Below, piece after piece: positions 3,422-40,947 of a DNA stretch of 54,647 bases. The stretch is taken from assembly GCA_021201395.1 (NCBI GenBank), contig JAJQFB010000045.1:1-54647 (forward strand), written 5' to 3'. The notes below the pieces were generated by a model, which searched no databases, had not been told where the DNA came from, and saw only the letters and a list, made by a program, of their open reading frames with translations. The first letter of the stretch is position 1, and each line of letters starts with the position of its first letter. Source of the DNA: Clostridiales bacterium. Lineage in GTDB: Bacteria > Bacillota > Clostridia > Lachnospirales > CAG-274. A program made the position numbers and the translations under genes.

Positions 3422-3907
3422 ATGTTTAACGTAGGTGATAAAATAGTTTATCCTATGTACGGTGCGGGCGTAATTGAGGAAATAGAGGAAAAGGAAATAG
3501 ACGGAAAGACCTGTCTTTACTATGCTATGATGCTGCCTGTGGGCAATCTTAAGATAACAATCTCCGTTTTAAAGGCGGAGTCTTTGGGGGTAAGATATAT
3601 TTCACCCTCAGAGGAGGTTCTCGATACCATAAGAACGGTAGGGCCTATTGAAATGTCGTCTAACTGGAACGAAAGATATAAGGATAATTCGGCACGAATT
3701 AAAACAGGAGAGCTTAAAAAGGTTGTAGAGGTTTTTAAAACCCTTATTTTAAAAGAAAGACAGAGAAGTCTTTCAAGTGTAGAGAAAAAAATGCTTAACA
3801 ACACAAAGCAGATTATTGTAAGCGAAATTATACTTTCCCAGGGGATGGAAAAATCCGAAGCGGAAAAATTATTATACGATACCACACTTACAAAGGTATC
3901 CACATAA
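3422..3907 (+). CDS. CarD/CdnL-family transcriptional regulator
   Basis: 161 aa. The N-terminal 60 residues form a CarD_CdnL_TRCF Tudor-like RNA polymerase-interaction domain (FNVGDKIVYPMYGAGVIEEIEE, then the strand LKITISVLKAESLGVR). The C-terminal half is helical and basic, as in CdnL proteins, where it contacts promoter DNA. Family members bind the RNAP beta subunit and stabilise open complexes at housekeeping and rRNA promoters. The ATG is preceded by AAAGGAGG. The gene is monocistronic: a strong terminator follows within 3 bp of its stop. Which genes it controls cannot be read from the window. Confidence 0.9.
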   Translation: MFNVGDKIVYPMYGAGVIEEIEEKEIDGKTCLYYAMMLPVGNLKITISVLKAESLGVRYISPSEEVLDTIRTVGPIEMSSNWNERYKDNSARIKTGELKKVVEVFKTLILKERQRSLSSVEKKMLNNTKQIIVSEIILSQGMEKSEAEKLLYDTTLTKVST

Positions 3908-3909
3908 AA

Positions 3910-3950
3910 AGAGAGGCAGGGCTTAAAATCAAAGTCCTGTCTCTCTTTTT
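3910..3950 (+). terminator. Rho-independent terminator after carD-family gene
   Basis: AGAGAGGCAGGGCTT pairs with AAGTCCTGTCTCTCT across a short A-rich loop (15 pairs counting two G.U), followed by TTTTTG. Confidence 0.88.
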
Positions 3951-4056
3951 GTCTTTATTTAAGGGGCGGCGGATGCAGGCTTGAGTGTACTTTTAAAATC
4001 TTAATAAAAATTATGAAAAAAGTTGTATGCTGCTGCAATTTTTTGACGATGACATC

Positions 4057-4085
4057 TTGAAAATGAAGAAAAAAGTTAATATAAT
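4057..4085 (+). promoter_or_regulatory. Sigma-A type promoter of the O-acylation operon
   Basis: TTGAAA (4057-4062), 17-nt spacer, TATAAT (4080-4085). It lies about 108 bp upstream of the lipoprotein ATG, which has its own AAGGAGG site at 4176-4182. The next terminator on this strand is at 9863, so the promoter probably serves six genes. Confidence 0.7.
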
Positions 4086-4193
4086 ATAAAGTGAGCATTT
4101 TTGTCGCCAAGCCCGAGGCTTAACAGCCAATCGGCAAAGAATGACAATTTATGAATAATTATATAGAAAATCAACAAGGAGGAAATTTTTGAA

Positions 4194-4847
4194 ATGAAAA
4201 GATTTATAGCTGTGTTTTTAGCGGCAGGTCTCTTATTAGGCGGCTGCGGCGGCAGTGAGGAAACAGCCGAACCCGAAACTGCAACCGAGACTGAAACAGA
4301 AACAGAAGCCCAAACCGAGGAAGAATCGGAAACAGCCGAACAAACCACGGCAGCAGAAACCCAAAACACAACAGCCGAAGAGACAACAGCGGCCGTAACA
4401 GAAGCACCAACCGCCGCCCCTGCGGAAGCCCAAACCGAGGCGCCCGTTCTTACGGAAAAAACAGTCCTTTCCTGCGGCGAGCTTTACACAAAGTGCGTTG
4501 AAAGCGGTAATTTTGTTGAGCTTGTGGCCTGCGACAGCGACTATGTTATGAATTATTTCGGCATAGACACAACCGCTCTTAAGGGCTATGCCGTTGGGGA
4601 AGCCCTTGAAGCCATTAAGGCCGATGCCCTGCTTCTGTTTGAAGCAAACAGTGAAAGCGAAGCGGCTGAAATAAAGGCCAAAATGGACGACTATTTGACA
4701 AGAAAACAAAACGAGCTTGAAAACTACAACGCAGAGGGCTATAAAAAAGCAGCAGCCGGAATAGTAGGCTCTTCGGGCAATTATGTCTATGTTATAATCT
4801 GTGAAAATTCTTCGGCCGTTTTAAATATAATCGAGGAAAATATCTAA
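4194..4847 (+). CDS. Secreted lipoprotein with acidic Thr/Glu-rich linker (DUF4358-like C-terminus)
   Basis: 217 aa. A lipoprotein signal peptide ends in the lipobox LLGGC (Cys18), so the mature protein should be lipid-anchored on the outer membrane face. Residues about 21-95 are a low-complexity Glu/Thr/Ala linker. The last 120 residues form a compact domain (YVMNYFGID...ALLLFEANSESEAAEIKAKMDDYL...NYVYVIICEN) that resembles DUF4358, tentatively. Its stop codon directly abuts the MBOAT start, so the two are probably translationally coupled. First gene of the operon; a substrate-presenting or scaffold role for the acyltransferase is an inference from position only. Confidence 0.75.
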   Translation: MKRFIAVFLAAGLLLGGCGGSEETAEPETATETETETEAQTEEESETAEQTTAAETQNTTAEETTAAVTEAPTAAPAEAQTEAPVLTEKTVLSCGELYTKCVESGNFVELVACDSDYVMNYFGIDTTALKGYAVGEALEAIKADALLLFEANSESEAAEIKAKMDDYLTRKQNELENYNAEGYKKAAAGIVGSSGNYVYVIICENSSAVLNIIEENI

Positions 4848-6266
4848 ATGGTTTTCAGCAGCTTAGAATTTTTGTTTTTGTTCCTGCCTGTATTTTTGAC
4901 GGTATATTATATCGTCCCCTTTAGGGCAAAAAATTTAATACTGCTGACGGGGAGCCTTATTTTCTACGGCTGGGGAGAGCCTAAATACATACTTCTTTTG
5001 CTTATACTTTCCTTTACGGGGTATATATGCTGTCTTGCTATGGAAAAAACCCGTGAAAACAGACTTATAACAAGGCTTGTTTTGATTCTTTCCCTTGCAG
5101 TCTGTTTAGGCGCCCTTATGTATTATAAATATTTCGGCTTTATTGTCGAAAATTTAAGCAGACTTTCTTTCTTTAATATTGAAATAAATGCTCCGGCTCT
5201 GCCTATAGGGGTCAGCTTCTTTACTTTCCAGATTTTGAGCTGCTGTATAGACGTCTATTGGGGCAGGGTCAAGGCGGAAAAAAGCATAATTGATTTTGTG
5301 TGCTATGTAAGTATGTTCCCTCAGCTTATAGCCGGCCCTATAGTAAGATTTTCCGACATAAGCAGGGAGCTTCACGAAAGAACCCACAGCCTTGACAATT
5401 TCTTAAACGGAGCCTCGAGACTTCTTATAGGAATTTTCAAAAAGGTTCTCATAGCCGACAGAATCGGCACCCTGTGGACGGTTATTAAAGCCGGAGACTA
5501 CGGAGAAATGTCGGTTTTGACGGCCTGGCTCGGTATAATCTGCTTTACGCTGCAGCTTTACTACGATTTCAGCGGCTACGGAGATATGGCCATAGGCATG
5601 GGGCGTATGATGGGCTTTAACTACCTTGAAAACTTCGACTACCCCCTGTTTTCAAAATCCATAACGGAATTTTGGCGCAGATGGCATATGTCCCTGTCAA
5701 GCTGGTTTCGGGATTATGTGTATATACCCTTAGGGGGAAACAGGTGCAGCAAGGCAAGGCACATATTGAACATTTTTATAGTTTGGGGTCTTACGGGAAT
5801 TTGGCACGGTGCCTCTTGGAATTTTCTCATATGGGGGCTTTACTACGCCTGTCTTTTGGCCGGAGAAAAATATATATGGGGGAAAGCTCTTAAGAAGCTT
5901 CCCTCGGCTGTAAGACACCTTTACTCTGTCTTTATTGTGGTCGTAGGCTTCGGCATCTTCGACCTGACGGGCTTAGGGGAAATTTTGAGCTATTTTAAGG
6001 TGCTTTTCTTCGCAGGGAGCAATCCCTTAATAGACAGAGCCTTTCTGTATAACATAACAAACGGCGGTGTTATCCTTCTTATGGGAATTATTTTCTCCGC
6101 TCCCCTTTACAGGCTTTATATAAACCGCTGTCAAAGTATTGAAAAAAAGGGAGTAAAATATGCCCTTTTGTTCGGAGACGGGGTCATAAGGCTTGTTTTG
6201 TTCGGGGCGGCGGTTTCCTTTATGGTAAGCAGCTCCTACAGTCCTTTCCTGTATTTCAGATTTTGA
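4848..6266 (+). CDS. MBOAT-family membrane O-acyltransferase (AlgI/DltB-like)
   Basis: 472-aa polytopic membrane protein of the MBOAT family, which moves acyl groups across the membrane to extracellular acceptors (alginate in AlgI, teichoic acid in DltB, peptidoglycan in PatA). Diagnostic segments: QLIAGPIVRF (residues 159-168), YYDFSGYGDMAIGMGRMMGF (238-257), the WRRWHMSLSSWFRDYVYIPLGG block with His280, and GIWHGASWNFLIWG with the invariant His320. Length and topology fit AlgI-type members. The ATG follows the upstream stop with no gap, and GAGGAAA lies in the upstream reading frame. The gene after it encodes an AlgJ-like DHHW protein, the usual partner. The acceptor glycan is not evident. 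Confidence 0.92.
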   Translation: MVFSSLEFLFLFLPVFLTVYYIVPFRAKNLILLTGSLIFYGWGEPKYILLLLILSFTGYICCLAMEKTRENRLITRLVLILSLAVCLGALMYYKYFGFIVENLSRLSFFNIEINAPALPIGVSFFTFQILSCCIDVYWGRVKAEKSIIDFVCYVSMFPQLIAGPIVRFSDISRELHERTHSLDNFLNGASRLLIGIFKKVLIADRIGTLWTVIKAGDYGEMSVLTAWLGIICFTLQLYYDFSGYGDMAIGMGRMMGFNYLENFDYPLFSKSITEFWRRWHMSLSSWFRDYVYIPLGGNRCSKARHILNIFIVWGLTGIWHGASWNFLIWGLYYACLLAGEKYIWGKALKKLPSAVRHLYSVFIVVVGFGIFDLTGLGEILSYFKVLFFAGSNPLIDRAFLYNITNGGVILLMGIIFSAPLYRLYINRCQSIEKKGVKYALLFGDGVIRLVLFGAAVSFMVSSSYSPFLYFRF

Positions 6267-6276
6267 GGTGAAGCCT

Positions 6277-7374
6277 ATGAATAAATTTTATATTCTGCCC
6301 TCTGCTGCTGTGGTGATTTTGCTTATCGCCTTTATAATATCTCCCAAAAAGGAATTTTCCGAAAACGAAAACAGATATTTACAAGACTTCCCTGAGCTTA
6401 ACTCGGAAACGCTTTTAAGCGGAGATTTTACCGGGGGGTTGGGAACCTATATAGAGGATCACTTTCCCTTAAGAGACGGCTTTATGGAGCTTAACGGAAT
6501 TTTTTCCGTCTATGCTTTGGGTCAAAAGGAAATAAACGGTGTTTATGTAGGAGAGGACGGCTGTTTTTTAGAGAAATATTCGAAGCCGGAAAGGATTAAC
6601 GAAACGGCGGAGAAGATTAACAGTCTGACGGAAAAAACGGACAGCAAAATTTACTGTGCATTGGCGCCTACGGCGGCGGAAATATATAAGGAAAAGCTTC
6701 CTGCCTTTGCGGAGGAAACAGGCCAGCTTGAGGCACTTAAAGAATATTATTCCCTTATAAACGCCGATAATATAGACATCTGCACTGCACTTTACGAAAA
6801 TAAAGAGGAAAAGCTATACTATAACCTTGACCACCACTGGACGGCTAAAGGCGCATACATAGGCTACAGAGAAATAGCCTCGGAAATGGGTCTTGAGCCT
6901 TTTGATGAGGATTTCTTCGACATAGAACAGGTGACGGACAGCTTTAAGGGGACAATATATTCAAAGGTAAATATGGGAGCGGATCAGGCGGACACTATGG
7001 AGGTTTACAAAAGCGGAACAGACTTTACCGTAAGCTACACCGACACGGAAGAAACAACGGACAGCTTTTACAATTTTGACTATTTAGACCAAAAGGACAA
7101 ATACTCTATGTATTTAAACAACCTCCACTCCCTTATAGAAATAACAAACAACTCACAGGGAGCCCGGGGAAATCTGGCGGTTATAAAGGACAGCTATGCA
7201 AATTGTCTTATACCCTTTCTTGCGGAGCATTACAAAACCGTCTATGTCTTTGACACAAGATATTACAGAGGGTCTGTTTGCAGCTTTATAAACGAAAACA
7301 AAATTGAAGATGTGCTTGTATTATACAACCTGAACACCATTGATGAGGATTTGGGGATAGACGGCATATATTAG
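6277..7374 (+). CDS. DHHW-family (AlgJ/AlgX-like) membrane-anchored protein
   Basis: 365 aa. One N-terminal membrane anchor (residues 2-22), then the family hallmark SENENRYLQDFPEL. The DHHW motif is at residues 185-188 and a KDSYAN segment near 305 corresponds to the Asp-Ser region of AlgJ/AlgX SGNH-like enzymes. These proteins work with an MBOAT to acetylate extracellular polysaccharide. Start choice: an in-frame GTG at 6268 lies inside the GAGGTG ribosome-binding site (6265-6270), so the ATG at 6277, six bases beyond it, is preferred. It begins 10 bp after the MBOAT stop, which supports co-expression. Its acceptor is unknown. Confidence 0.85.
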   Translation: MNKFYILPSAAVVILLIAFIISPKKEFSENENRYLQDFPELNSETLLSGDFTGGLGTYIEDHFPLRDGFMELNGIFSVYALGQKEINGVYVGEDGCFLEKYSKPERINETAEKINSLTEKTDSKIYCALAPTAAEIYKEKLPAFAEETGQLEALKEYYSLINADNIDICTALYENKEEKLYYNLDHHWTAKGAYIGYREIASEMGLEPFDEDFFDIEQVTDSFKGTIYSKVNMGADQADTMEVYKSGTDFTVSYTDTEETTDSFYNFDYLDQKDKYSMYLNNLHSLIEITNNSQGARGNLAVIKDSYANCLIPFLAEHYKTVYVFDTRYYRGSVCSFINENKIEDVLVLYNLNTIDEDLGIDGIY

Positions 7375-7385
7375 GAGGAATTATA

Positions 7386-8156
7386 TTGAAAAAGAAAATT
7401 TTTGCGGTTTTTCTTGCCGCATTTTTCTCGGTATCGGCTTTAACCCGGGGAACAGCCCTCGGGGATACGGGGGCGGCCGCCGTTACATATACAAAGCCCA
7501 TACCGGATATGCCCGTATATGACAGTGAAACAGACTCTTTTTTTGAAAATTCCGTTTTCTGCGGAGATTCCCTTATGCAGGGGTTTGAGATGTACTGTCA
7601 ATACAGGGGAGAGGGCTTCCTTTCAGACCCTCTGTTTTTGGCGGCTGCAAGCTTTTCATTAAAGCAGGCAATAGGACCTGTTACCTCTTCCACTCTTCAC
7701 CCTTTATATCAGGGGGAAAAGCTTTCGGTTGAGGACTCCATTGCAAAGTGCGGAGCGGAAAAGGCCTTTCTGTTTTACGGTATGAATGATTTGGTTTGGA
7801 CTGAGCCCGAGGACGCCGTAGAGGAGTATAACACCCTGATTTTCAGGATACACAACAAGGCGCCCGATGCCAAAATTTACATAATAGGAGCCACCTATAT
7901 TTATGCCCCGGCTCAGAGATTTTCAAGCGGATATACAAATGAAAATATGAGAATTTTTAACGACACTATGTATAAATATTGTCAGAACTATGACTATATT
8001 GAATTTATAAACATAGGCGACAGGCTTATAGACGAAACAAACGGCCTGAGAAGCGAATACACCTCAGACAATTATGTACATATGACTATGGCGGGCTATG
8101 ATGTCTGGGTTAAGGTCTTAAGAGCCTATGCAAGAGATTTTACGGCAGATGAATGA
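7386..8156 (+). CDS. Secreted SGNH/GDSL-family hydrolase, paralogue 1
   Basis: 256 aa with an N-terminal signal peptide (KKKIFAVFLAAFFSVSALT). SGNH blocks: FCGDSLMQGF with the nucleophile Ser62, GMND (132-135) with the oxyanion Asn, and a C-terminal His232 in SDNYVHMT. The acidic partner is at -4 from His (Asp228), not the usual -3. The start is TTG, seven bases after AGGAGG (7373-7378). First of three tandem copies sharing phrases such as EFINIGDRLID and NTLIFRIHNKAP. Following MBOAT and DHHW genes, it may add, remove or proofread acyl groups on an exported glycan. No lipase-type features are seen. Confidence 0.85.
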   Translation: MKKKIFAVFLAAFFSVSALTRGTALGDTGAAAVTYTKPIPDMPVYDSETDSFFENSVFCGDSLMQGFEMYCQYRGEGFLSDPLFLAAASFSLKQAIGPVTSSTLHPLYQGEKLSVEDSIAKCGAEKAFLFYGMNDLVWTEPEDAVEEYNTLIFRIHNKAPDAKIYIIGATYIYAPAQRFSSGYTNENMRIFNDTMYKYCQNYDYIEFINIGDRLIDETNGLRSEYTSDNYVHMTMAGYDVWVKVLRAYARDFTADE

Positions 8157-8202
8157 CTGCTCAAAGGAGGAATTTCCGAAATGAAAAAAAACACTGCTGC
8201 TT

Positions 8203-8994
8203 ATGATTTCCTGTCTGCTTGCCGGAAGCATAAATATATTTGCCGATGAAGCAGCAAACTCAACAACAAACGAAACCTACGTAGAGGGAACAAGCTATGC
8301 AAAACCAATCCCCGATATGCCTATATATGACAGCGAAACCGACGCTTTCTTTGAAAATTCCGTTTTCTGCGGAGATTCCCTTATAGACGACTTTAAACGG
8401 TATTGTATGGCAAAGGGCAGCGGCTTCCTTTCGGAACCTCTGTTTTTGGCGGCTACAAGCTTTTCTCTTATGCAGGCTATAGGCCCCGTTACCTCAACAA
8501 CCTTCCACCCCCTATATCAGGGCGAAAAGCTTTCCGTTGAGGATTCCATGGCAAAATGCGGAGCGGACAGAGCTTTCCTGTTCTTCGGTATGAACGATTT
8601 GGAGTGGACGACACCCGAAAAGGCCGTTGAAGAATATAACACGCTTATATTCAGAATACACAACAAGGCTCCCGAAACAAAGCTCTACATAATAGGACTA
8701 ACCTATATTTACGATTCGGCTCAAAAATATGATTCCGGCTTTACAAACGAAAATATGAGAATTTTCAACGACACTATGTATCAATACTGTCAGAAATATG
8801 ACTATATCGAGTTTATAAACATAGGGGACAGGCTCATAGACGGCACAAACGGCCTTAAAAGCGAATATGTTTCCGACGGCATAGAGCATATGACAACCGC
8901 AGGCTATGACGTATGGACAAAGGTTTTAAGAGCCTATGCAAAGGATTTTACGGCGGCGGAAGCCAAAGAGGCCGAGACTGCCGAACAGCAATAA
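8203..8994 (+). CDS. Secreted SGNH/GDSL-family hydrolase, paralogue 2 (start disrupted by an A8 tract)
   Basis: Very close to paralogue 1: same GDSL, GMND and C-terminal DGIEH blocks. The ATG at 8203 has no ribosome-binding site and gives a truncated signal peptide. A well-placed AGGAGG (8165-8170) and ATG (8181) lie upstream, but the ATG is followed by eight A residues and reads out of frame, stopping after 22 codons. With seven A residues the frame joins and yields a normal signal peptide, MKKTLLLMISCLLAGS, like that of paralogue 3. So the intended start is probably 8181. This could be slippage or phase variation, a real mutation, or a base-calling error. Acts outside the cell if expressed. 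Confidence 0.8.
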   Translation: MISCLLAGSINIFADEAANSTTNETYVEGTSYAKPIPDMPIYDSETDAFFENSVFCGDSLIDDFKRYCMAKGSGFLSEPLFLAATSFSLMQAIGPVTSTTFHPLYQGEKLSVEDSMAKCGADRAFLFFGMNDLEWTTPEKAVEEYNTLIFRIHNKAPETKLYIIGLTYIYDSAQKYDSGFTNENMRIFNDTMYQYCQKYDYIEFINIGDRLIDGTNGLKSEYVSDGIEHMTTAGYDVWTKVLRAYAKDFTAAEAKEAETAEQQ

Positions 8995-9031
8995 AGCATT
9001 AGAGCAATTTAAGCAGAAAGGAGAAGTTAAT

Positions 9032-9817
9032 ATGAGAAAAACGGCAATTCTTGTGATTATTTGTATGCTTATGGGGAGCATAAACGTTTTTGCAGGGGAA
9101 AACAGTCTTTTAAATTCAGAGGGCGGTATTATTGAAGCAAGCTATGTAAAGCCCATACCGGACACCTCAGTATATGACGCAGAAACCGATGCCTTTTTTG
9201 AAAAGTCTGCCTTTGTGGGGGATTCCGTTATGCTTGGTTTCCAAAGATATTGTCAGACTAAGGGAAGCGGCTTCCTTTCCGACCCTCTTTTCTTAACCTC
9301 GGGAAGCTTTTCACTTTGGGAGGCCGTAAGCCCCGTTTCCTCAGGCTCTCTTCACCCCATATATCAGGGTCAGAGTATGCTCGTTGAGGGCGCAATAGCC
9401 AAAAGCGGAACGGAAAAGGTTTTTATACAGCTCGGCACAAACGACATAGGCTGGAAAACAATAGATGAAACCGTACAGAATTACAACGACCTTATTTTCA
9501 GGATTCGCACTAAAGCTCCAAACGCCAAAGTGTATGTAATAGGGCTTACATATATGTACGGCCCCTCACAGAAAACAAACTTAAATAATGCCAATATGCG
9601 TACATTTAACGATACTATGTGTCAATACTGTGAAAAATATGACTATATGGAATTTATAAACATAGGCGACAGGCTTATAGACGATGACGGAAACCTTAAA
9701 AAGGAATATACCTCCGACGACTATGTACATATTTCAACAGAGGGCTACGATGTTTGGGTAAAGGTTTTAAGAGCCTATGCAAAATACTTTACCGAAACAG
9801 AACAAAACGCAGAATGA
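9032..9817 (+). CDS. Secreted SGNH-family hydrolase, paralogue 3
   Basis: 261 aa. The start is the ATG at 9032 behind AAAGGAG (9017-9023), giving the signal peptide MRKTAILVIICMLMGSINVFA. A longer in-frame extension would run into paralogue 2 and is rejected. It is more diverged than paralogues 1 and 2: block I is GDSV, block III is GTND, and the C-terminal block SDDYVHIS has Asp at both -4 and -3 from His. So it is the only copy with a textbook DxxH. Last gene of the operon, followed by a strong terminator. It may have a different acyl or glycan specificity from its neighbours; that is inference. Confidence 0.86.
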   Translation: MRKTAILVIICMLMGSINVFAGENSLLNSEGGIIEASYVKPIPDTSVYDAETDAFFEKSAFVGDSVMLGFQRYCQTKGSGFLSDPLFLTSGSFSLWEAVSPVSSGSLHPIYQGQSMLVEGAIAKSGTEKVFIQLGTNDIGWKTIDETVQNYNDLIFRIRTKAPNAKVYVIGLTYMYGPSQKTNLNNANMRTFNDTMCQYCEKYDYMEFINIGDRLIDDDGNLKKEYTSDDYVHISTEGYDVWVKVLRAYAKYFTETEQNAE

Positions 9818-9862
9818 AATAAGTTATAAAAATACCGAAAATTATAATTACCGAAAAAAAAC

Positions 9863-9903
9863 AAACCGCTCTGATATAATAAGCAGAGCGGTTTAATTTT
9901 TTT
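9863..9903 (+). terminator. Rho-independent terminator ending the O-acylation operon
   Basis: AAACCGCTCTG / CAGAGCGGTTT perfect 11-bp stem with a 10-nt loop, followed by AATTTTTTT. Confidence 0.92.
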
Positions 9904-25759: not shown

Positions 25760-26530
25760 ATGCGGAGTGTGTATACGGCTTTTTTATTTATAATGCTTGT
25801 AATGGCGGCGGTGCCTCTTTACGCAGGGAGTATTAATCGGGAGTATACAAAAGAGGAGATTAAGTCTGCGGCGAAAAAGGTTGTTCCCTCTCCGGTTTAC
25901 GGAGAGATTAAAAAGGGAACAGAGCTTTATGCTTCTCCCTCTGAGGACTCAGCCTTTGAAGAAGCTTTAAATAGGGAGAGAGTTCTTATTTTAAAGGATT
26001 TTTCTCTTATGTGGTATTACATAGAGGCCGACAGCGGCAAGGCATGGGTCAAAGCCGAAGATATAAAAATCCCCTCGGATTCCCTTACAGCCAATGACAG
26101 CCTGACAAACAGGGAGATAGAGTGTTATATAAACACGGGAGATTTTAAGAGCAAAACCGACAGGCTCATTTGGGTGGACATACACCGCCAGCGGATTTAC
26201 ATACTTAAAGGAGAGGACGGCGGCTTCCGTCTTGAAAAACGACTTGTCTGCGGAACGGGCAAAAACATCTCCCCTACAACGAGAGGGCTTTTCGAGATTT
26301 CCGACAGGGGAGAATGGTTTTACTCACTCAGGCTTAAAAGCGGAGCAAAATATTGGGTAAGATTTAACGGAGCCTATCTTTTTCACTCCGTGGCTATGGA
26401 CAAGGAGAGAAACATAACCGACCCCGCCTTAGGCAGACGCTGTTCAAACGGCTGCGTAAGGGTTTCCGTAAAAGACGCCGAATATATCTATAAAACAATT
26501 CTCGCCGGAAGTACCGTATGGGTCAATTAA
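25760..26530 (+). CDS. L,D-transpeptidase (YkuD domain) with SH3-like region
   Basis: 256 aa, secreted (signal peptide through about residue 22). Residues 45-105 look like a bacterial SH3-type domain (GTELYASPSEDS, WYYIEADSGKAWVKAED). The YkuD catalytic domain spans about 133-256 with His209 (YLFHSVAMD) and nucleophile Cys232 in CSNGCVRVS. It cross-links peptidoglycan 3-3 or attaches proteins to the wall, and is resistant to most penicillins. The ribosome-binding site AAAGGA is farther than usual (17 nt). An inverted repeat TCCGAAT/ATTCGGA (25711-25717, 25742-25748) precedes it and could be a regulatory site. Confidence 0.92.
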   Translation: MRSVYTAFLFIMLVMAAVPLYAGSINREYTKEEIKSAAKKVVPSPVYGEIKKGTELYASPSEDSAFEEALNRERVLILKDFSLMWYYIEADSGKAWVKAEDIKIPSDSLTANDSLTNREIECYINTGDFKSKTDRLIWVDIHRQRIYILKGEDGGFRLEKRLVCGTGKNISPTTRGLFEISDRGEWFYSLRLKSGAKYWVRFNGAYLFHSVAMDKERNITDPALGRRCSNGCVRVSVKDAEYIYKTILAGSTVWVN

Positions 26531-26685: not shown

Positions 26686-27987
26686 ATGAAGAAATCATTA
26701 AGACTTTTAGGAACATCTCTTCTTCTTTCTTTTGCTCTTGCTTCTTCGTCAATGTCGGTTGCGGCCTTTGCCGATGAAACAGATGATACAGAAGCAACGG
26801 AAGAGACCGAAGAAACAGAGGACGAAGCGGAGGAAGAAACCGAAACGCCGGAAATGGATTTTTCCGATGTAGACAGTGAAACGGAAGCCGGAGCGGCCAT
26901 CGCGAAAATGTATGAAAACGGCTATATAACAGGCTACACTGACGGAACTTTCCGCCCCGACGGAAGCATTACCCGTGCAGAGCTTGTGAGAATAGTAAAC
27001 CAGACTCTCCGGCTTGAAAGGATCAGTGAGGACACAGTAAGCAGCTATTCCGACGTAGAGGAAGCAGCCTGGTATTATGAAGATATTATAATCGCTCAGG
27101 AGCAGGGCTATGTTTCGGGTTTCCCCGACGGAACTTTCCGCCCTAACGAAAACATAACCCGTGAACAGTTCTGTACAATACTTTCACAGTTCTATTCATT
27201 CTCACCTCTTGAAAGCTATACCGAGGTTGTTTCAGACGAAATTTCGGGCTGGGCAGAGGACTATGTATATGCCGTTCTTTCCTACGGTATTATGAACCTT
27301 GAGGACGATAACGCTTTCAGAGCAACGGAGAACATTACAAGAGGCGAGGTTTGCCTTGCTATGGTTAATTTCATAATCACAGACGAGGGCGAGGTCAGCG
27401 ACATACTTTCCTCTATTATAAGTGACACCGAATCCTCCTCTACGGGAAGCTCCTCAAGCTCAAGCGGCTCTTCAAGTTCAGGCGGCGGCTCATCTTCCGG
27501 CAGCTCCTCAAGCTCTTCAGGCTCAAGCAGTTCTTCCTCTTCAAGCAGCGAGACGACAACAGAGAGCGACAGTGAAACAACAACCGACGGCGACACGGAA
27601 ACAACAACCTCTTCAAGCTCAAGCGGAAGTTCATCATCTACAACAGACTCTACAACAACCACAACCGAGACGGAAACCGAAACCACAACAATAGACAGCG
27701 AAACCCTTGCAGCGGTTAAGAGCGTTTACAACAGTCTCCAGTATGCCCAGATAAACGCCACAAACAGTTCTGTTAAGAGCTTTATCAAAAACATAAGGGC
27801 ATATTTAAAGAGCTATATGAACGACCCCTCAATGGATATAGACGCAGCAGCAGATGATATTATTTCACAGTACAGAAGTCTTTCAACGGAGGAAAAGGCT
27901 TTAGCTCAGGATCTTATACTGGAATATTGCTCACTGACCCAGCTTATGGATCTTAAGAATACGCTTCTTCCGAATTATACGATATGA
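26686..27987 (+). CDS. S-layer homology (SLH) domain protein with Ser-rich linker
   Basis: 433 aa, secreted (signal peptide to about AFA at residue 29). An acidic Thr/Glu stretch (31-56) leads to three SLH repeats: 59-105 (FSDVDSE...GYTDGTFRPDGSITRAEL), 121-167 (FPDGTFRPNENITREQF) and 185-230, which lacks the conserved GxFxP core and may bind poorly. SLH domains bind secondary wall polymers. Then a Ser- and Thr-rich linker (about 246-350) and a helical C-terminus. The start follows GGAGG. It ends in a 4-bp ATGA overlap with vanZ, so the two are co-translated. Confidence 0.92.
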   Translation: MKKSLRLLGTSLLLSFALASSSMSVAAFADETDDTEATEETEETEDEAEEETETPEMDFSDVDSETEAGAAIAKMYENGYITGYTDGTFRPDGSITRAELVRIVNQTLRLERISEDTVSSYSDVEEAAWYYEDIIIAQEQGYVSGFPDGTFRPNENITREQFCTILSQFYSFSPLESYTEVVSDEISGWAEDYVYAVLSYGIMNLEDDNAFRATENITRGEVCLAMVNFIITDEGEVSDILSSIISDTESSSTGSSSSSSGSSSSGGGSSSGSSSSSSGSSSSSSSSSETTTESDSETTTDGDTETTTSSSSSGSSSSTTDSTTTTTETETETTTIDSETLAAVKSVYNSLQYAQINATNSSVKSFIKNIRAYLKSYMNDPSMDIDAAADDIISQYRSLSTEEKALAQDLILEYCSLTQLMDLKNTLLPNYTI

Positions 27988-40356: not shown

Positions 40357-40947
40357 ATGGAAAAGATTTTATTTTTGGGGGACAGTCTGACGGACTGCGA
40401 AAGGCTTTACAGCCCAGACGGTTTGGGAGAGGGATATGTTAAACTTCTGAGTAAGAGGCTTCCCTACAGGCTTGTAAACAGAGGCTTTAACGGCTTTACC
40501 GCCGCAGACGTAAACAGGCAGCTTAATATTTTTTTACAGGATTCGCCTGAATATATAAGTCTGCTTGTGGGGGTAAACGATGTTCCCTCTGTTTTGGGGG
40601 ACACAAACACTGCTTTTAACAGATTTTCAAAAAGCTATGAGAGCATATTGCAGGGGCTTTCGGCCTACAGGGACAATACTCTTATAATTATTCCCTTTAT
40701 ATTTACAACTCCTGCGGAATTTATTTTGTGGCGGAAAATACTGGGTGTTATGAACAATGAGATAAAAAGGCTCTGCAAAAAACACAGCTTTAAAAATATT
40801 TTGGATATGGAGGCGGTTTTCGCAGAGGAAGCTTCGGCAAGAGGAGAAGCCGCCCTGACCGTTGACGGAATCCACTTAACCGAAACAGGCCACGAAATTT
40901 TAGCGGAAAACTGGCTTAAGGCCTTTAAAAACATAACAGAAAAATAA
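40357..40947 (+). CDS. Cytoplasmic SGNH/GDSL-family hydrolase
   Basis: 196 aa, without a signal peptide. Block I ILFLGDSLTD (Ser10), block III GVNDV (Asn in the oxyanion hole), block V DGIHLT with Asp and His in the standard DxxH spacing. Members are esterases of broad substrate range. It differs from the three secreted SGNH paralogues in length and sequence. A short leader frame at 40287-40442, in another frame with its own GGAG, overlaps its start; see findings. It is the last gene before a terminator. Confidence 0.87.
   Translation: MEKILFLGDSLTDCERLYSPDGLGEGYVKLLSKRLPYRLVNRGFNGFTAADVNRQLNIFLQDSPEYISLLVGVNDVPSVLGDTNTAFNRFSKSYESILQGLSAYRDNTLIIIPFIFTTPAEFILWRKILGVMNNEIKRLCKKHSFKNILDMEAVFAEEASARGEAALTVDGIHLTETGHEILAENWLKAFKNITEK

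Follow-up and report, generated by a model that had tools for sequence, protein, structure and literature searches.

What process joins a lipoprotein, an MBOAT acyltransferase, a DHHW protein, and three SGNH proteins in one run of bacterial genes? This question is raised by a contig of a Clostridiales bacterium (JAJQFB010000045.1, forward strand; genome G000), whose full stretch of 54,647 nucleotides we refer to as the window. The initial annotation had described the run as a possible glycan O-acylation cassette with three secreted SGNH paralogues.

Layout of the operon and its probable acylation genes

Six co-directional genes on the plus strand lie within positions 4194-9817 of the window, separated by intergenic gaps of 0-37 nt. 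They encode a DUF4358 lipoprotein, an MBOAT, a DHHW protein, and three tandem SGNH proteins and form a single operon. A promoter-like site (TTGAAA-17-TATAAT, 4057-4085, plus strand), recognized by consensus match only, is the best such match in the region (11/12). RNA folding places an intrinsic terminator at 9862-9903 on the same strand, with a hairpin at approximately 9862-9895 followed by U's (-19.8 kcal/mol, z -6.83); a simple scan had overlooked it because of its long loop. The bracketing of all six genes by a promoter-like site and a terminator, much as originally proposed, is upheld. The upstream carD gene has its own terminator (3905-3951). Together with carD, the neighbors of the cassette are trpD, uvrC, typA, and a flippase-like gene, and no polymer synthase gene was found beside it. 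Further along the window, a gene for an S-layer protein that has three SLH domains and a linker rich in Ser/Thr (26686-27987) adjoins an L,D-transpeptidase gene (25760-26530). The DUF4358, MBOAT, DHHW/ALGX, and Lipase_GDSL_2 domains of the cassette exceed their curated Pfam cut-offs.

The MBOAT gene (4848-6266) encodes a protein that matches PF03062 (E 3.5e-26) and aligns with DltB, including the His of the WHG motif, here the candidate catalytic residue His320. Its C-terminus reads SPFLYFRF, in which FLYFRF spans residues 467-472 and contains the predicted acyl shuttle Tyr469. The FXYXXF pattern closes every full-length cassette MBOAT that we examined, nearly always as FLYFRF and otherwise as the variants FLYFKF and FMYFKF; the MBOAT reading frame at locus L088 stops short of the motif. 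The Tyr of the PatA FXYXXF motif is auto-acetylated and the acetyl group is then handed to an SGNH protein, and the same logic is reported for DltX (PMC12148441). D-alanylation by a Dlt system was rejected for the cassette, since the MBOAT scores 160.6 bits against the DltB equivalog model TIGR04091, far below the cut-off of 375, and genes for DltA, DltC, DltX, or DltD were not found beside it. The same genome encodes a second MBOAT system (L041, G000:C117, 8083-10567), consisting of an MBOAT that ends in FIYFQF and, after it, a protein with weak DUF1574/DltD similarity.

The following gene (6268-7374) very probably encodes a PatB1/AlgJ-type O-acyltransferase, i.e., the extracytoplasmic SGNH-superfamily partner adjoining the MBOAT. 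Its product scores 101 bits against PF14286 (cut-off 25; E 1.1e-28) and matches the Bacillus cereus PatB1 structure 5v8d (E 4.4e-22), with the DHHW motif (residues 188-191) and the KDS motif (Ser309 in KDSYAN) both aligned. The two motifs were also found in 14 homologues. Because the MBOAT ends in FXYXXF and the DHHW and KDS motifs align with those of PatB1, we consider it very probable that the cassette specifies an MBOAT-SGNH machine for transmembrane acylation of a cell-envelope polymer, which agrees with the polymer O-acylation function assigned to it in the initial annotation. By analogy to known systems, the acyl group is most likely acetyl, which would make the reaction an O-acetylation.

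In the mechanism that we propose, the MBOAT would use His320 to take an acyl group from a donor in the cytoplasm, which is probably acetyl-CoA, and would load it onto its own Tyr469. This Tyr would then pass it to Ser309 of the DHHW protein, which is anchored in the membrane. We infer both steps, from the donor to the MBOAT Tyr and from this Tyr to the DHHW Ser, with good support from homologues whose mechanism has been tested. With less certainty, a secreted SGNH enzyme may act at the end of the route, either as a second terminal transferase, in the position of AlgX/WssF, or as a trimming esterase, in the position of Ape1. Likewise with less certainty, the DUF4358 lipoprotein may serve as a non-catalytic docking partner in the position of AlgF/WssG.

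The lipoprotein (4194-4847) combines an LGGC lipobox and an acidic Glu/Thr-rich linker, in which 20 D/E residues face a single K/R residue across 75 positions, with a C-terminal domain that the initial annotation had left unnamed and that belongs to DUF4358 (PF14270, E 4.5e-17). Its structural model (pLDDT 88, pTM 0.83) found no match at E<=0.001 in a fold search of the PDB. Since DUF4358 matches no known fold, the AlgF-like role is suggested by gene position alone. A second DUF4358 lipoprotein is solitary in many relatives and lies away from MBOAT/DHHW genes (L074, 3165-3728; L075, L077, and L097-L099). The open-access literature that we searched contains one passing mention of DUF4358 only; this family without known function now gains a functional context and a testable partner.

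Conservation and gene order in relatives

The initial annotation had made its reading depend on whether the neighboring genes stay together in relatives, and they do so in the genus, in sister genera, and in other families. DUF4358, MBOAT, DHHW, and SGNH genes occur together in all nine genus members; in one of these, G004, a DUF2130 gene lies between the MBOAT and DHHW genes (L046, 10774-12171). In two sister genera, eight genomes show the order SGNH-DUF4358-MBOAT-DHHW, as does G024, mostly with an NAD-epimerase gene upstream; a PAP2 gene follows downstream in most genomes of these two genera. Exceptions are G031, where the cassette is interrupted by a contig end, and G017, where the SGNH gene is located elsewhere. 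All four genes are also present in other families of the order (G044, G065, and G088). Families f9 and f17 have the SGNH-DUF4358-MBOAT-DHHW order, a divergent four-gene version is found in family f6 and in G137, and the cassette of G086 is split over contig ends. Gene order thus shifts among the relatives, with linkage retained. Other genomes, those of family f2 among them, carry DUF4358-MBOAT-DHHW with no adjoining SGNH gene (G037, G061, G142, G104, and G082). As the f2 genomes, G104, and G082 have the trio without an SGNH gene beside it, the SGNH component is not indispensable.

Among 61 genomes, the SGNH family is present in 22, the DHHW family in 22, and both in 20, a co-occurrence with a hypergeometric p of 8e-12 when kinship is ignored. 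Co-occurrence with SLH/CsaB, by which a secondary cell wall polysaccharide might have been recognized as the target, was uninformative: SLH/CsaB is found in 59 of the 61 relatives, with or without the cassette, yet is missing from the cassette carrier G044.

Origin, disruption and role of the SGNH copies

SGNH1 (7386-8156, TTG start) encodes a signal peptide and a GDSL-like domain (PF13472), and SGNH3 (9032-9817) a signal peptide and a GDSV domain (PF13472, E 3.8e-17). The start of SGNH3 is position 9032, which has a Shine-Dalgarno sequence of its own, and not the mechanical ORF start at 8936. Between them lies SGNH2 (8181-8994). Another GDSL-family SGNH protein, encoded at 40357-40947 of the window, has no evident signal peptide and is apparently unrelated to the cassette.

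The SGNH trio, initially seen as the defining feature of the locus, is not shared by most relatives. Most genus members possess a single SGNH gene, tandem pairs are present in G003 and G004, and only the window genome has three. The triplet is a lineage-specific amplification by duplication, one SGNH gene being the usual state. G000, G003, and G004 each have an additional SGNH copy elsewhere, behind genes for a VWA-like protein (DUF2201), a MoxR-like AAA protein, and an LRR_5 protein (L040, L045, and L047). Since these three genes precede the whole cassette in other genus members, the arrangement points to a relocation of the cassette in which one SGNH copy stayed at the old site. A phylogenetic tree separates the SGNH1/2-type, the SGNH3-type, and the left-behind copies. 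The SGNH3 clade is common to the three species (support 100/100), which places its split before their separation; SGNH1 and SGNH2 look like the products of a later duplication (88/86). Pairwise dN/dS among the SGNH copies, disrupted ones included, is 0.11-0.31, with dS near saturation, and is approximately 0.17 for SGNH2 versus SGNH1. These ratios indicate purifying selection on all SGNH copies.

As assembled, every tandem array contains one disrupted copy. In SGNH2, the Shine-Dalgarno sequence and the ATG at 8181 lead through a run of eight A's (8184-8191) into a short dead frame. The body frame is open only from the ATG at 8203 and so lacks the beginning of the signal peptide, whose codons are offset by one base from the body frame across the run. 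Of the three secreted SGNH proteins described initially, the SGNH domains are real, but the SGNH2 body as assembled is not in frame with its start and signal peptide. Copy 2 of G003 is broken close to the signal peptide, at a T7 run (L044, ~5150-5185, minus strand), and copy 2 of G004 is stopped by a TGA codon at residue 135 (L046, ~8300, minus strand). In total, disruption affects 3 of 7 tandem SGNH copies but none of the 36 cassette genes that lie outside tandem arrays in the nine genomes (Fisher p 0.003).

The disrupted copies may reflect decay, slippage or phase variation, or assembly error. General assembly error may have broken them, but the disruptions are confined to tandem copies. We consider it rather unlikely that the array is a redundant duplication in decay, with dosage as its only role. 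The loss of frame or the premature stop in one copy of each of the three species, set against the intact non-tandem genes, is what such decay would produce; however, the dN/dS values speak for long constraint even on the disrupted copies, and the SGNH3 lineage is common to three species. Still less probable is a switch in which homopolymers close to the 5' end of the gene (A8 for SGNH2 and T7 for G003 copy 2) turn the secretion of single paralogues on and off. Two of the three disruptions do lie at such tracts near the signal peptide, the one-base frame offset across the tract would suit slippage, and constraint on the disrupted copies persists. On the other hand, contingency loci usually have longer tracts than the 7-8 seen here, the G004 disruption is a TGA codon within the gene body, assembly error is possible in these metagenome-derived genomes, and each species is represented by one genome.

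SGNH1, SGNH2, and SGNH3 all keep the catalytic Ser, Asn, Asp, and His. These residues (Ser62, Asn134, Asp228, and His232 in SGNH1 numbering) are invariant across 30 aligned sequences, and the GDSL/SGNH blocks I (GDS), III (GxND), and V (Asp, His) are present. Divided specificities had been derived from the GDSL/GDSV difference and from an Asp at -4 versus -3 in the paralogues, and neither feature carries that distinction. The fourth residue of GDS-x is free to vary in the family (L, I, V, and R), and the Asp at -4 (D228 of SGNH1) forms one column common to all three proteins, to which SGNH3 adds a second Asp at -3. The residue before the catalytic His is Glu in SGNH2 and Val or Ile in almost all relatives. 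Because the SGNH1/2 and SGNH3 lineages parted long ago, they may still differ in function.

The SGNH enzymes may be terminal transferases, the reading we slightly prefer, or editing esterases that remove acyl groups added by the MBOAT and the DHHW protein, as Ape1 does beside PatA/PatB, a reading that we hold to be a serious contender. The structure prediction envisaged in the initial annotation yielded a confident AlphaFold model of SGNH1 (pLDDT 88, pTM 0.88) with PDB matches to SGNH acylhydrolases. In the Foldseek search, PAF-acetylhydrolase-like proteins and sialate O-acetylesterases ranked at the top, ahead of PatB (rank 39) and OatA (rank 49), and the profile matches are likewise to sialate O-acetylesterases and other acylhydrolases. 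These matches, the intact catalytic residues, and the shared logic of addition and removal in Gram-negative patA-patB-ape1 clusters (PMC12148441) all favor editing esterases. By contrast, the part list and gene order of the cassette are closer to WssFGHI, and the stretch that follows the second strand (A-S-F-S-L) shows by eye no clear block II Gly, as in PatB/OatA, in a register that is not fixed. No clear Gly of the oxyanion hole is found at the expected block II place in the genus, and alignments to solved structures begin after this block. A Gly-to-Ser change in block II may point to transferase activity but, with the register not fixed, does not amount to proof. We give little credence to the most elaborate scenario, a four-component Clostridia machine with a DUF4358 lipoprotein as a novel type of adaptor, an SGNH second-stage transferase, and slippage-switched tandem paralogues that would vary acylation of the surface polymer from cell to cell.

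Comparison with known acylation systems

No description of a DUF4358-MBOAT-DHHW-SGNH unit was found in the open-access literature, a provisional result since subscription papers lie largely outside it. To this extent the cassette is undescribed, as the initial annotation had it; the further claim of an arrangement without parallel does not stand, because WssFGHI and AlgXFIJ are made up of the same parts. MBOAT/DHHW pairs are known in the literature from B. cereus and C. difficile. In the Bacillus cereus group, PatA1/PatB1, which acetylates the secondary cell wall polysaccharide, similarly pairs an MBOAT with a DHHW-family transferase. It is reviewed as a two-protein system (PMC9487903), whereas the cassette adds a lipoprotein and a GDSL-family SGNH protein, and its target would be some envelope polymer. 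CcsH/CcsI of the Clostridioides difficile cellulose locus provide an MBOAT/DHHW pair within the Clostridia (PMC7710045). They always adjoin ccsA/ccsZ and have no described DUF4358 or SGNH partner, whereas the cassette pair has no adjoining synthase. An acetylated cellulose locus of the ccs/wss type was rejected, as neither a cellulose synthase nor a glycosyl hydrolase gene lies beside the cassette.

The cluster of the Gram-negative peptidoglycan system PatA-PatB-Ape1 encodes, like the cassette, an FXYXXF MBOAT, a transferase of the SGNH type, and one more SGNH enzyme (PMC12148441). PatB is of the DUF459 type and not of the DHHW type, and the carbohydrate-binding module of Ape1 was not seen in the cassette. 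The alginate proteins AlgI/J/F/X correspond to the cassette in comprising an MBOAT, an AlgJ-like transferase, an accessory protein, and a second SGNH enzyme. They differ in that AlgX bears a carbohydrate-binding module and in that the cassette has no adjoining alginate synthesis genes.

WssF-WssG-WssH-WssI, the system behind acetylated cellulose in Pseudomonas fluorescens, likewise combines an SGNH protein, a small accessory protein, an MBOAT, and an AlgJ-like transferase (PMC4148444, PMC10302187), and its order equals that of the sister genera, SGNH-DUF4358-MBOAT-DHHW. WssF, the SGNH member, is an uncharacterized protein proposed to be the terminal transferase (PMC4148444, PMC10302187). In contrast to Wss, the cassette has no adjoining cellulose synthase, the DHHW (PatB1) family replaces AlgJ, the DUF4358 lipoprotein takes the place of the AlgF-like protein, and some species carry an SGNH array. 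The four-gene unit and its DUF4358 partner are the more durable findings, over the triplet. They extend the MBOAT-SGNH scheme of Gram-negative peptidoglycan, alginate, and cellulose systems, and of Dlt, to a conserved four-gene unit of the Clostridia.
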